Translations under genes and position numbers: made by a program
Assembly (NCBI GenBank): GCA_003695565.1
Contig: RFIQ01000228.1
Location: 1-34,859, forward strand
Source of the DNA: Planctomycetota bacterium
Lineage (GTDB): Bacteria > Planctomycetota > Planctomycetia > Pirellulales > Pirellulaceae
Direction: 5' to 3'
DNA length: 34,859 nucleotides
Shown: positions 5,761-34,859 of the stretch, in pieces
How the letters are laid out: each line of letters starts with the position of its first letter
Numbering within the stretch: position 1 is the stretch's first letter
Notes under the pieces: generated by a model
What the model was told of the DNA's origin: nothing
Databases searched by the model: none
What the model saw: only the letters and a program-made list of their open reading frames with translations

Positions 5761-5854
5761 GCACGTTGTACGGCATGGGGAGGGAACTGTCACGCCCCAT
5801 GCATTCCTGTCATGGTGGCCGCGCGTCGATTGCGTAGAATGAGGATCCATCGCG

Positions 5855-6000
5855 GATTCCGGCAGGGACTGCCGGGCGACTTTGGGGCTGGAGCGGAAGG
5901 CAGGTTACAAGTTTCCGGCAGGAACAGGTGGGCGACTTTGGATTGGGGCGGAAGGTAGGTTGGAAGATTCCGGCAGGGACTGCCGGGCGACTTTGGGAAT
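5855..6000. repeat. ~55/56-bp tandem palindromic repeat array upstream of recQ
   Basis: Units with ttccggcag at 5857, 5913 and 5968. CCGGCAG-GGA-CTGCCGG hairpin at 5859-5875 and 5970-5986; degenerate copy at 5915-5931. Each is followed by gcgactttgg. Confidence 0.9.
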
Positions 6001-6012
6001 GGGACTGAGAGA

Positions 6013-8628
6013 ATGAGCGTCAGCCAGCAAGCCGACTCCTTGAGCAACGCGTTGCAGCAGTTTGGGCTGACCGAGTTCCGGCCTGGGCAGCGTGAGGTGA
6101 TCGAAGCCATCCTGGCGGGGCACGATTGCATGTGCATCATGCCCACCGGCGGGGGAAAGAGCTTGTGCTACCAATTGCCTAGCGTGATCCGTGCAGGATT
6201 GACGATCGTCGTTTCGCCTCTGATCGCCTTGATGAAGGACCAGGTCGATTCGCTCCAGGCCCGGGGGATCCCGGCTACGTTGATCAACAGCACCTTGTCC
6301 GCCGCCCAGCAACAGCAGCGGTTGCAGGAAGTGGCAGCGGGGAAATACCGCCTGGTGTATGTGGCCCCGGAACGGCTGCGCAATCCGCGGTTCGTGGATG
6401 CGATTCGGGCCACGCCGATCCAGTTGTTGGCTATTGACGAGGCCCATTGCATCAGCCAGTGGGGCCACGACTTTCGCCCCGATTATGCCCGCATCGGCCA
6501 GTTTCGCGAAGTGCTTGGCGGGGTGCAAACCATCGCCCTGACGGCCACGGCCACGCCGCGCGTGCGCGACGATATCTGCGATGTACTGCGTCTGAGGAAG
6601 CCCAAGCAGTTCATGAGCGGTTTTGCCCGCCCGAATCTCCACTTCGGCGTGGTACAGGCCAACGCCGATCGTGAGAAGCTGGAACAGGTGGGACGTTTTC
6701 TCCAGCAGCAACCGGGGGCGGGAATTATCTACTGCGCTACCCGCAAACGATGCGATACCGTCGTCGAGTACATCGCCGAGCAGCTCCATATTCCCGTCGG
6801 CGCGTACCATGCCGGTTTGCTACCCGAGCAGCGTCGGGCGATCCAGGATCGTTTCATGAACGATGACTTGCGCATCGTCGTAGCCACCAATGCATTTGGC
6901 ATGGGAATCGACAAGCCCGATTTGCGTTTCGTAATCCATTTCAATATGCCCGGCTCGCTGGAAGCGTATTATCAGGAGGCCGGGCGCGCGGGGCGCGATG
7001 GTCTGCGCAGCACGTGCGTGATGCTGTACGCCTACCAGGATCGGTATATTCAAGAATTCTTTATCGACAATCGATATCCCTCCCGCGAGCTGATTCAGCA
7101 GGTCTACGAATTCCTGCAGGAAATCGACGAGGATCCGATCGAGATGACCATGGAGGAGATCAAGACGGCCCTCGGTTTGAGCGTCTCCGCCGAGGCCATC
7201 GGTAGTTGCTTGAAAATTCTGGCGCGGACACGCGTGCTGGAACGGCTGGAAGCCGGAGGCGGGATGGCGCGGGTCTGCCTGGACAGCAACCTGCCCACCC
7301 TCGTCGACTTGTTGCCGCGAGAGGCAAAGACGCAGCGAACCGTGCTGCGGGCTCTCGAACAAATGGTGGGTGATCGGCGGGGCGAGGAGGTGTACGTCCA
7401 TCCCGATGCGCTGTCCAGACGCACGCAGTTGGATCGCAAGCAGATCCAACGGGCGTTGCGGGAATTGAACAAGCTGGAGGCGGTCGATTACGTACCACCG
7501 TTTCGTGGCCGGGCGACCCACTTTCGCCGCCGCGATGTGCCGTTCGAACGGTTGGGGATCGACTTCGATCACCTTCGCAAGATGAAGGAGGTCGAGTACG
7601 AACGGCTGAACCAGGTGGTGGGCTACGCTCAGTCCAGCCTTTGCCGGCAGCGGGCGATTTTGCGTTACTTCGGCGATACCTCCGCGGACAACTGTGGTCA
7701 ATGCGATCGGTGCCAGCGGCGGCGTGGCTGGCCGCAGATCCCCGCCCCTGCAACGGCGGCCGCCAACCCGACTCCGGGGCAATCTGGCGAACCGGGCCAA
7801 ACCGGTTCTCCCAGTGGCAACGACCGAGCGGTCGGTGCCGATCAGGAGGCCGATCAGGCGGTGGTGTGTGCCGGCGATGATCCGTTGGTGCTCGCTGCCT
7901 TGGAAGCAATCGTGGACGCGGTGCGCAGGACGCACGGCCGAATTGGAAAACAATTGATTGCACAATTCTTGTGCGGTTCGCAGAACGCCAAAGTCCAGAA
8001 GATGGGGCTGACCCGGCTGGCCGGTTTCGGCATGCTGTCCGATTTGCGACAGGCCGATGCCGTCGAGGCGCTCGAAGCGTTGTTGCATGCCGGAGTTTTG
8101 ACGCAGCACGAGGTGACTCGCAATCGGCCAACGATTTCGGTTTCCGAAGAAGTGGGGCAGGGGAGGGAGGTCCGGACGGCGTTGGCTCGCGTTCCCCTCG
8201 ATCGAAGCCTGGCCGAGAAACTGCAGGCCATCGGCCGCCGCGTGGCCCGACCCCAACAGGCTGCCCAGCAGCGGATGGGGGAACAGGCCCGTCGCGAAGG
8301 GCAAGAGGCCTCTCCCGCACCGGCCCCGCGCGATCGCCATCGGGTCGATCCGCCGCCGCAGCAGCAGCGGGATGCAGCGCAGGGGGAAACCGCCTCCGAT
8401 TTCACCTGGACGATCATGCTGTTCCGCCAAGGAGCCGATTGGGGGCAGGTTCGCGCGATTCGGCGGATGTCTGATGACGAACTGGCGGCGAGTCTGTGCG
8501 ACGCATTGGCAGCCGGGAGGGCTTTGGAGGCGAAGTGGATCGCTTGCCCGCAGGATCAAACGCCGACACCCGGTCAGCAACGCGTCCTCCGCGAGTTGCG
8601 GCGGCGACGGGCCGCCGGTCTGACGTAG
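6013..8628 (+). CDS. recQ: ATP-dependent DNA helicase RecQ
   Basis: MPTGGGKSLCYQLP (Walker A), IDEAHCISQWGHDFRPDY (DEAH), FGMGIDKPDLRFVIH, EAGRAGRDG; zinc cluster C-RQRAILRYFGDTSADNCGQCDRC. Confidence 0.97.
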   Translation: MSVSQQADSLSNALQQFGLTEFRPGQREVIEAILAGHDCMCIMPTGGGKSLCYQLPSVIRAGLTIVVSPLIALMKDQVDSLQARGIPATLINSTLSAAQQQQRLQEVAAGKYRLVYVAPERLRNPRFVDAIRATPIQLLAIDEAHCISQWGHDFRPDYARIGQFREVLGGVQTIALTATATPRVRDDICDVLRLRKPKQFMSGFARPNLHFGVVQANADREKLEQVGRFLQQQPGAGIIYCATRKRCDTVVEYIAEQLHIPVGAYHAGLLPEQRRAIQDRFMNDDLRIVVATNAFGMGIDKPDLRFVIHFNMPGSLEAYYQEAGRAGRDGLRSTCVMLYAYQDRYIQEFFIDNRYPSRELIQQVYEFLQEIDEDPIEMTMEEIKTALGLSVSAEAIGSCLKILARTRVLERLEAGGGMARVCLDSNLPTLVDLLPREAKTQRTVLRALEQMVGDRRGEEVYVHPDALSRRTQLDRKQIQRALRELNKLEAVDYVPPFRGRATHFRRRDVPFERLGIDFDHLRKMKEVEYERLNQVVGYAQSSLCRQRAILRYFGDTSADNCGQCDRCQRRRGWPQIPAPATAAANPTPGQSGEPGQTGSPSGNDRAVGADQEADQAVVCAGDDPLVLAALEAIVDAVRRTHGRIGKQLIAQFLCGSQNAKVQKMGLTRLAGFGMLSDLRQADAVEALEALLHAGVLTQHEVTRNRPTISVSEEVGQGREVRTALARVPLDRSLAEKLQAIGRRVARPQQAAQQRMGEQARREGQEASPAPAPRDRHRVDPPPQQQRDAAQGETASDFTWTIMLFRQGADWGQVRAIRRMSDDELAASLCDALAAGRALEAKWIACPQDQTPTPGQQRVLRELRRRRAAGLT

Positions 8629-15448: not shown

Positions 15449-16111
15449 GTGAGTACTCCGCCCGATGGCCATCGCCTGTCAAATGCCCAACCAGCGACCG
15501 ATTCGGCGAAAGATGACGCGGGAACTGGATGCCAGCCGCTCGAAGCACCACCTGGGGAGCACGCCGGGGCGGAGCGAGTCCACCGAGGTTGCCACCACGA
15601 GGAGGATACGTGGAGTACCGCCGGCACCTGGCGGCAGTTGGACCCGAGGTCGATCGCGATGTCCCGTATCGTGGGAGCGATCGCCGCGACGGTGTTGACG
15701 ATTCTGGCTCTGGTTGGCGTCGCGACCGCGTGGCTCACCGTTTCGTGGCCTCTGTGGGGCATCGGCGCGTTATTGTGCCTGGCCATGGTGGTGGTGGCGA
15801 TCGGTTGGATTGTCGCCTGGTGGTGGCCGCCCTTGGCGTTTCGCCACGCGCGATGGCGGTTGGACGCCGCCGGGTTGGAGATCTACCGCGGGGTGCTGTG
15901 GAGGCACCGTATCGCCATCCCTGCACACCGCGTCCAGCACGTCGACGTGGCTCAAGGGCCCATGCAGCGGATGTTCGACCTGGGGACCTTGATTGTCCAT
16001 ACTGCAGGAACCCAACATGCATCGGTGGAGTTGAGCGGGTTGAACCATGGGGAGGCTATGCGTCTGCGCGATTTGTTGATCGAGTTTCGAGGGGGCAACG
16101 ATGTCGTCTGA
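15449..16111 (+). CDS. Bacterial PH-domain (bPH2/DUF304, YdbS-like) membrane protein
   Basis: Two TM helices followed by WRLDAAGLEIYRGVLWRHRIAIPAHRVQHVDVAQGPMQRMFDLGTLIVHTAG, typical bPH2 pattern. GTG start at 15449 or ATG at 15659. Confidence 0.82.
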   Translation: MSTPPDGHRLSNAQPATDSAKDDAGTGCQPLEAPPGEHAGAERVHRGCHHEEDTWSTAGTWRQLDPRSIAMSRIVGAIAATVLTILALVGVATAWLTVSWPLWGIGALLCLAMVVVAIGWIVAWWWPPLAFRHARWRLDAAGLEIYRGVLWRHRIAIPAHRVQHVDVAQGPMQRMFDLGTLIVHTAGTQHASVELSGLNHGEAMRLRDLLIEFRGGNDVV

Positions 16112-17849
16112 CCGTCCTGAGCCTGGCGATCTTCCGGCTGCAGACCAGAGAGGACGTCCGGACATGCCCGTAATGGCCGAGCCGGCGACGGTCGTGGACG
16201 CCGAGCCGGCCATGGCTCGATTGGCGGAACCGAATCACCTGCATCCGTCCTCGGTCCTGTTCGAGGTCCTCTCGCATGTTCGCCAGTTGATCTTGCCCAT
16301 GCTGCTAGGGGCGGCCAGTGCCGTTCAAGGGAGTATCCTCGGCGGGGGTGTCGCAGGGGTGATCTTCGCCATCGCGGTGGGGTTTACCCTGCTGCGGTAC
16401 TTCACCCTGAAGTACCACATTCGTGACGAAGACCTGGTGGTTACCGAGGGACTGTTGTTCCGTCGCGTACGGGTGATTCCGATTCGGCGCATTCAGAATG
16501 TCGACTTGGTCCAGAACCTGTTGCATCGGTTGTTCGGAGTGGCCGAAGTGGTTATCGAGACGGCGTCGGGAGGTGAGCCGGAAGCTAAGCTGCGGGTGTT
16601 GCGGCTGGATCAAGTCGCTGTATTGGAAGACGCCATTCGCGCGGTGTCGGGCGGAACCATGATACCTGCCCCGAGTCTTGTTGGTTCAGAGATCCGCGAG
16701 GGACTCGCGGGCGACTCTGATGCGGCGAGTCTTGTTGATGCGAAGATCCGCGAGGGACTCGCGGGGCACTCTGCAGCAAACGAATTCGCGAGCGGCGCCG
16801 CGCAACCTGCGCCGAGCCCAACACCGCAGAGCGACGAAGTCGTTGTGCACCGTATCCCTATCAGGCATCTCGTGTTGGCTGGAGTGGCCAGCAACCGTGG
16901 CATGATTCTGGTCGGAATGTTGCTGGGGTATGTGGTTCAACAGCAGGATTTCGACGAGCGCTTCGACATCGACGCGTTGGCCGGTTATGTACCCCAGTCT
17001 ACCGATTGGTGGGTGACGGCGATCTTGATTGCCGCGGGCGGCCTGGCCGCCATCGTTCTGCTGCGCCTGCTCGGCATTGCCTGGTACATCCTGCGGTTCT
17101 ACGATTACAAATTGTCGCGCCGCGGCGATGATCTGCGAGTGGCGTGCGGATTGTTCACGCGCGTATCGGCCACGGTGCCGCGGCGGCGGATCCAGTTCAT
17201 TTCCGTGCACCGGCCCTTGTTCCTGCGCTGGATGGGGCTGGCCTGCATCCGCATCGAAACGGCCGGAGGTGCCGGCAAGGGGATGGAGGACGCCAGCAGC
17301 ACGATTTCGCGCCGCTGGTTTTGCCCGGTGCTGGCGGACCGGGATGTCGATCGACTGCTGCGAGAACTGCGGGCGGATGCGGCATTCGCTTGGAACGATC
17401 TGCAATGGTTGCATGTCGCACCGCAAACCGGCAAACGGTTGACACGCATCGCGCTGGTGGCATCGATTGTGACCGGGGTGGCCGGATACTGGTTCTGGCC
17501 GCCCTGGGGCTGGTTGGTGGGCCCGGCCCTGTTTCCCCTGCTGGTTCTGCTGGTGTGGAAGAAGGCCAAGGCCCGGCGGCTGGCCACGACCGGAAGTTGT
17601 GTCCTGTTCCAAAGCGGGTTGTTTACTCGAAAGTTGAGCCTGGCATTTCTAGATCGCATCCAAGTGCTCGAGGTGCGGCAAAGCCCGTTCGATCGCCGAT
17701 GGCAGATGGCCAGCCTGCGGATCGATACGGCGGCGGCTGGTCCGGCCGACCATGTGATCGACGCCAGGTTCTTGAGCCAGGGGGTGGCCCAGCAGTTGTT
17801 GGAACAATTGCGCGCGTCGAGCTCCCTGCACACGCCCGCATGGCAATAA
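16101..17849 (+). CDS. Bacterial PH-domain (bPH2, YdbT-like) membrane protein with several PH modules
   Basis: Repeated PH signature (EDLVVTEGLLFRRVRVIPIRRIQNVDLVQNLLHRLFGVAEVVIETASG; DLRVACGLFTRVSATVPRRRIQFISVHRPLFLRWMGLACIRIETAG; SGLFTRKLSLAFLDRIQVLEVRQSPF). Overlaps the upstream gene by 11 bp. Confidence 0.85.
   Translation: MSSDRPEPGDLPAADQRGRPDMPVMAEPATVVDAEPAMARLAEPNHLHPSSVLFEVLSHVRQLILPMLLGAASAVQGSILGGGVAGVIFAIAVGFTLLRYFTLKYHIRDEDLVVTEGLLFRRVRVIPIRRIQNVDLVQNLLHRLFGVAEVVIETASGGEPEAKLRVLRLDQVAVLEDAIRAVSGGTMIPAPSLVGSEIREGLAGDSDAASLVDAKIREGLAGHSAANEFASGAAQPAPSPTPQSDEVVVHRIPIRHLVLAGVASNRGMILVGMLLGYVVQQQDFDERFDIDALAGYVPQSTDWWVTAILIAAGGLAAIVLLRLLGIAWYILRFYDYKLSRRGDDLRVACGLFTRVSATVPRRRIQFISVHRPLFLRWMGLACIRIETAGGAGKGMEDASSTISRRWFCPVLADRDVDRLLRELRADAAFAWNDLQWLHVAPQTGKRLTRIALVASIVTGVAGYWFWPPWGWLVGPALFPLLVLLVWKKAKARRLATTGSCVLFQSGLFTRKLSLAFLDRIQVLEVRQSPFDRRWQMASLRIDTAAAGPADHVIDARFLSQGVAQQLLEQLRASSSLHTPAWQ
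16672..16776. repeat. 54-bp in-frame tandem duplication carrying two CCGCGAG-GGA-CTCGCGG palindromes
   Basis: cgagtcttgttg at 16672 and 16726 (period 54 bp = 18 codons); palindromes at 16694-16710 and 16748-16764. Encodes SLVGSEIREGLAGDSDAA / SLVDAKIREGLAGHSAA. Confidence 0.92.
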
Positions 17850-34577: not shown

Positions 34578-34640
34578 ACCTGGCGCGATCGAAAGTCGGC
34601 TGGATTCCCACCGCCATCGACTACCGTGTTCGATAGGATT

Positions 34641-34859
34641 GACGCTTCGCGATTGCAATCCTCTTCACTGGGGATGTCGCCGGCTGCAAGCCACGTCTAT
34701 GCTCTCCCACCTCCCCCGGGAGCCATCCTCCATGACGCTCCGCGATTACAATCCTCTTCACTGGGGACGTCGACAACTGCAAGCCACGCCTTTGCCACGT
34801 GGGTCCCTTTCGCCGAAAGGGACTCCCGCACGACGCCCCCATTGCACGTGGTTTTACCA
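34641..34859. repeat. ~93-98-bp tandem repeat array with a variable palindrome per unit
   Basis: gacgcYYcgcgattRcaatcctcttcactggggaYgtcg....ctgcaagccacg at 34641 and 34734, a possible third unit start at 34832. Hairpins CTCCC-CC-GGGAG (34711-34722) and GTCCCTTTCG-C-CGAAAGGGAC (34803-34823). Confidence 0.85.

Follow-up and report, generated by a model that had tools for sequence, protein, structure and literature searches.

Two repeat units in a YdbT-like gene

The window analysed here, a whole stretch of 34,859 nt from a contig of a Pirellulaceae bacterium, carries a YdbT-like membrane protein gene and, overlapping its start, a shorter bPH_2 gene (Table 1). A shorter gene overlapping the start of ydbT is the usual layout of ydbS-ydbT pairs. 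Residues 192-227 of the YdbT-like protein consist of two 18-residue units, SLVGSEIREGLAGDSDAA and SLVDAKIREGLAGHSAAN, which are encoded by direct repeats of 54 bp. An earlier note on this DNA had described an in-frame tandem repeat of 18 codons inside this coding sequence, and the gene, the frame and the period are all as it claimed. The 54-bp duplication is real but inexact, since 12 of the 54 positions differ between the units. All of these differences lie outside the 19-nt palindrome core (P = 0.0024 compared with random placement), and the changes in six of the eight affected codons are non-synonymous. The perfect 7-bp stem that had been reported, CCGCGAG-GGA-CTCGCGG, was found in both copies. 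The repeats do lie in a linker, but the site is after the first of the three bPH_2 modules and not after several of them, as had been stated.

Table 1. Genes, 54-bp units and REP copies located in the window
Feature	Position	Strand	Details
REP copy upstream of recQ	5853-5887	+	44.2 bits; stem CCGGCAG/CTGCCGG
Decayed REP copy, recQ array	5909-5943	+	76% identity; 12.2 bits, E 0.047
REP copy 14 nt before recQ start	5964-5998	+	46.1 bits; stem CCGGCAG/CTGCCGG
recQ	6013-8628		RecQ domains
Shorter bPH_2 gene	15449-16111		overlaps start of YdbT-like gene
YdbT-like membrane protein gene	16101-17849	+	582 aa (translation); Pfam bPH_2 (PF03703) E=1e-48, three stretches
54-bp unit 1	16674-16727	+	encodes SLVGSEIREGLAGDSDAA, residues 192-209
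REP copy 1	16688-16722	+	45.3 bits; stem 16694-16700/16704-16710; loop GGA; minus-strand tag GTCG
54-bp unit 2	16728-16781	+	encodes SLVDAKIREGLAGHSAAN
REP copy 2	16742-16776	+	43.4 bits; stem 16748-16754/16758-16764; minus-strand tag decayed, GTGC

A dispersed family with a covarying stem

The palindromes are copies of a REP of 34-35 nt with the consensus GCTG[T/A]TC-CNNNAG-GGA-CTNNNG-GGC[G/T]ACTCTGGG, and column counts place its sharp edges at -7 and +26. A search for exact matches to the 15-mer core gave 25 occurrences in the host genome, a 4.8-Mb MAG that is 85% complete, and none for the reversed control pattern. A covariance model built from 44 copies gave 112-123 matches in this MAG depending on the threshold, and 114 copies were placed; with 150 of 4,391 candidates scored, the host count is a lower bound of at least 100. 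The same model found both copies in the YdbT-like gene, head-to-tail and in frame with it, at E ~1e-13 (copy 1) and ~6e-13 (copy 2) against the window, and chance is excluded for both because of their scores (Table 1).

The stem covaries. Pairing was kept in 98.4% of cells, and 25 cells carried double changes; shuffles gave 10.1 such cells and slid versions 0-2. The variable stem bases were left free in one of the two starting patterns; therefore the pairing there was not built in. Among 100 full-length copies the main stem classes were CGCCAG (33), CGCGAG (19) and CGGCAG (14), with pairing kept in each. On the minus strand the consensus reads CCCAGAGTMGC-CCGCCAG-TCC-CTGGCGG-AACAGC, and an unpaired tag adjoins the 7-bp stem, with the form GTCG in 33, GTAG in 26, GTGG in 9 and GTTG in 5 of the same 100 copies. 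The tag is degenerate, and assignment to the GTAG type holds only with the variants listed by Di Nocera (2013). No match to the REP was found in viral contigs, and a literature text search for the core sequence returned an unrelated occurrence only.

Arrays and genomic placement

REP copies with a neighbour within 150 bp are arranged head-to-tail in 31 of 32 pairs. The stem type is the same in 93% of neighbour pairs compared with 30% of other pairs, and the flanks have drifted. This suggests that the arrays arose by local duplication in which the palindrome was kept or homogenised. The element reported upstream of recQ is indeed present, but as three head-to-tail units, and the two well-preserved ones have a stem other than CCGCGAG (Table 1). 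The window also contains two other direct repeats, one of 63 nt at 34640-34795 (87% identical, spacing 93 nt) and one of 58 nt at 1-58 and 245-302 (93% identical, spacing 244 nt).

Placement was scored in approximately 370 kb of the host genome, in 69 stretches holding nearly all REP copies, with genes called by our own simple codon-usage script. Of 114 located copies, 104 were intergenic, eight intragenic and two partial. A 34-aa gene call on contig C397 with one intragenic copy was discarded as spurious. Counted as clusters, 5 of 82 were intragenic compared with 64 expected from the 78% coding density of 20 other contigs, a depletion of P ~2e-44 under this simple gene caller. The genome-wide count that the earlier note had proposed thus yielded at least 100 dispersed copies, and of the 82 insertion sites only about five fall inside genes.

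The sites lay between divergent genes in 24 cases, between co-directional genes in 24 and between convergent genes in 10, compared with 27/62/11% expected from the base pairs in each kind of region (P = 0.007). Regions between divergent genes are not avoided; these and, to some degree, the convergent ones may be overrepresented. This slight enrichment, together with the compensating changes that keep the stem and the persistence of array palindromes while flanks drift, would be expected if the intergenic copies were selected regulatory RNA or DNA hairpins, such as attenuators, mRNA stabilisers or protein-binding sites, and the intragenic pair a by-product. A transposase substrate needs the hairpin too, however, and orientation relative to co-directional genes was even (17 same, 17 opposite). 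The copies lie at very different distances from genes, their consensus lacks a T-run that would serve in termination, an Rfam scan of the window gave no matches, and the family is absent from nearly all relatives at the threshold used. We therefore consider a regulatory role unlikely.

Copies inside genes

The orthologue alignment and genome-wide search proposed in the earlier note support a REP-like element tolerated in coding sequence, and neither of the refuting outcomes that it had named was observed: the insert peptide, searched for as IREGLAG or REGLAG, was absent from all 23 YdbT orthologues, and the host genome holds at least 100 dispersed copies with covarying stems. The closest orthologue (genome G156, 54% identity) has a gap opposite the first REP-encoded stretch. 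The linker is hypervariable, with 54 to 106 residues among the orthologues, and the host protein with 96 is no length outlier. Length alone therefore does not prove an insertion, which is indicated instead by the dispersed repeat. Because the orthologues are at most 54% identical, an exact empty site cannot be shown at the nucleotide level. The linker of all orthologues is rich in small and polar residues, and a hypervariable region of this kind could acquire an ordinary protein-level duplication with a palindrome arising by coincidence. This explanation is refuted by the occurrence of the element at approximately 100 non-coding places, and we give it practically no weight.

A second clear intragenic copy was found on contig C442, in an MnmC-type methyltransferase gene (PF05430, MnmC similarity), with the REP on the opposite strand and read in a different frame. 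Two conserved blocks of the protein are separated by 143 aa, compared with 74-115 in 29 orthologues of the family, and the additional residues are located at the REP, in a segment without a counterpart in these 29 proteins. Copies on contigs C321 and C450 lie in ORFs without Pfam support, the latter as an in-frame head-to-tail pair at the contig end; both are likely to be in-frame intragenic cases, weaker than those in the YdbT-like and MnmC-type genes. A weak copy of 23.5 bits in an alpha-2-macroglobulin-like gene (C410) may be a chance match. The intragenic peptides vary with frame and strand (IREGLAG, CSGGDRRATL, AARDSRGTL, QSSPPVPGG), and therefore no peptide is conserved.

The earlier note had also compared the element with Rickettsia palindromic elements. 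The analogy of in-frame insertion stands, in that the YdbT-like and MnmC-type genes stay open, as do genes carrying RPE-4 and RPE-6. A repeat that enters genes and is retained for its encoded peptide, or because of it, could account for the two copies in the YdbT-like gene, the pair at the end of C450 and the copy in the MnmC-type gene. The comparison goes no further. Intragenic copies are a rare exception in the host, where the great majority of located copies are intergenic; the encoded peptides change with frame and strand; most codon changes between the two units of the window alter the amino acid; and the tag is GTMG and not the CGTC of RPE-4 and RPE-6. We regard such a coding element as very unlikely.

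Occurrence in other genomes and search for a transposase

Among 241 family genomes scanned, strong matches were found only in a congener, Pirellulaceae bacterium KatS3mg111; in the large searches of relatives 17-28 candidates were scored per genome, and presence there is a lower bound. A scan of genome contigs likewise showed the family strongly in KatS3mg111 only. KatS3mg111 has a head-to-tail REP triplet and inverted dimers with the tag inside. These intergenic dimers are recurrent (loci L190-L197), and several adjoin repeated segments of ~1.2-1.8 kb, one of which contains a glycosyltransferase-like ORF. Gene segments that recur in KatS3mg111 contain REP dimers; an insertion sequence was considered for them and rejected. 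Weaker matches occurred in G605, from another family of the same order, and in G241, from the PVC group T3Sed10. The copies in G241 have the form CGGCAG-GGA-CTGCCG or CGACAG-GGA-CTGTCG with a similar tag, and may represent a distant cousin of the host family. At one locus of that genome (L237) CGGCAG-GGA-CTGCCG hairpins form a head-to-tail pair with a 64-nt period. Single matches in Virgisporangium, Anaerolineales, Kiloniellaceae and Eubacterium appear to be fortuitous and were set aside.

Detectable Y1_Tnp genes number one in the host genome and two in KatS3mg111, and all are flanked by palindromes other than this REP. No covariance-model match above 10 bits was found at the 20 RAYT loci of the genus. 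The sole RAYT detected in the host (contig C446, ~2020-2910; loci L183 and L054) is flanked by the palindromes GTAGGGTGGGACAAGC and GCTTGTCCCACCCTAC. This Y1 gene appears to split an MBL-fold (beta-CASP-like) gene, directly after the motif IPAFAVGRTQE. The RAYT genes of KatS3mg111 (L221, L231) each lie in dense arrays of their own distinct palindrome, GCCCCTTCGGGGC and TTTGGCCGAAGGCCAAA.

Relation to known repeats

GTAG REPs have been described in bacteria including E. coli, Pseudomonas and the planctomycete R. baltica, which has several such families; tag variants including GTMG and GTGG are known, as are REPs inside ORFs (Di Nocera 2013, PMC3733652). These elements are 20-40 nt long, mostly intergenic and sometimes inside genes, with a single hairpin of 6-9 bp, a 3-nt loop, an unpaired GTAG-like tag at one end and sub-families with alternative complementary stem bases (PMC3733652). 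The host family has the same construction: dispersed, mostly extragenic copies, a short-loop covarying hairpin and a tag with variants. It differs in that its tag mixes GTCG with GTAG and sites between divergent genes are not avoided. A hairpin with a tag is also a feature of REPINs and the REP-RAYT system (PMC3116915; PMC2817692), and KatS3mg111 shares with these the tag-inside inverted dimers, but unlike in a REPtron no RAYT gene was found flanked by the REP of the host family. The class 3 TnpA(Y1)-associated hairpins of Planctomycetes (PMC6006769) are likewise planctomycete hairpin repeats of high copy number. They have a foot, CnGA, 5' of the hairpin; by inspection of the consensus only, the host minus strand has CAGA directly beside the GTMG tag, at degenerate positions.

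The kind of element, and occasional copies of it in genes, are thus already known in other bacteria. Less usual are the head-to-tail neighbours, the patchy occurrence in the family and the finding of no Y1 transposase gene flanked by the REP.

Proposed origin and significance

The most probable explanation, in which we have considerable confidence, is that a REP landed or arose in the tolerant linker of the YdbT-like protein and was then duplicated as a 54-bp segment, the added residues being by-products. The 34-nt REP, with its GTAG or GTMG tag, would have become dispersed in the intergenic DNA of the Pirellulaceae host. As its resemblance to this class of repeats suggests, it was probably mobilised in trans by a REP-associated transposase of the Y1 (HUH) type that recognises the hairpin and tag in single-stranded form, and local head-to-tail duplication would then have followed. 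One copy would have landed in, or arisen in, the disordered segment that links bPH_2 modules, and an in-frame tandem duplication would then have given the two copies seen today. The GTCG form is open in all six frames and the linker tolerates changes in length, which is probably why the copy in the YdbT-like gene has been retained; the added residues therefore appear to be by-products and not a selected peptide.

It is also possible, although we hold this only tentatively, that the family is a transposase orphan restricted to its lineage and expands chiefly through local head-to-tail duplication, with palindromes homogenised and spacers drifting. If so, the YdbT-like gene with its in-frame 54-bp duplication would show this array process caught inside a gene.

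Our study adds a well-defined REP family from an uncultured Pirellulaceae genome; its strong head-to-tail bias is not predicted by standard REP-RAYT models. A further result is two clear cases of protein linkers lengthened by a REP, in a YdbT-like protein and in an MnmC-type tRNA-modification enzyme, and these suggest that such linker insertions are tolerated in different frames and not selected.
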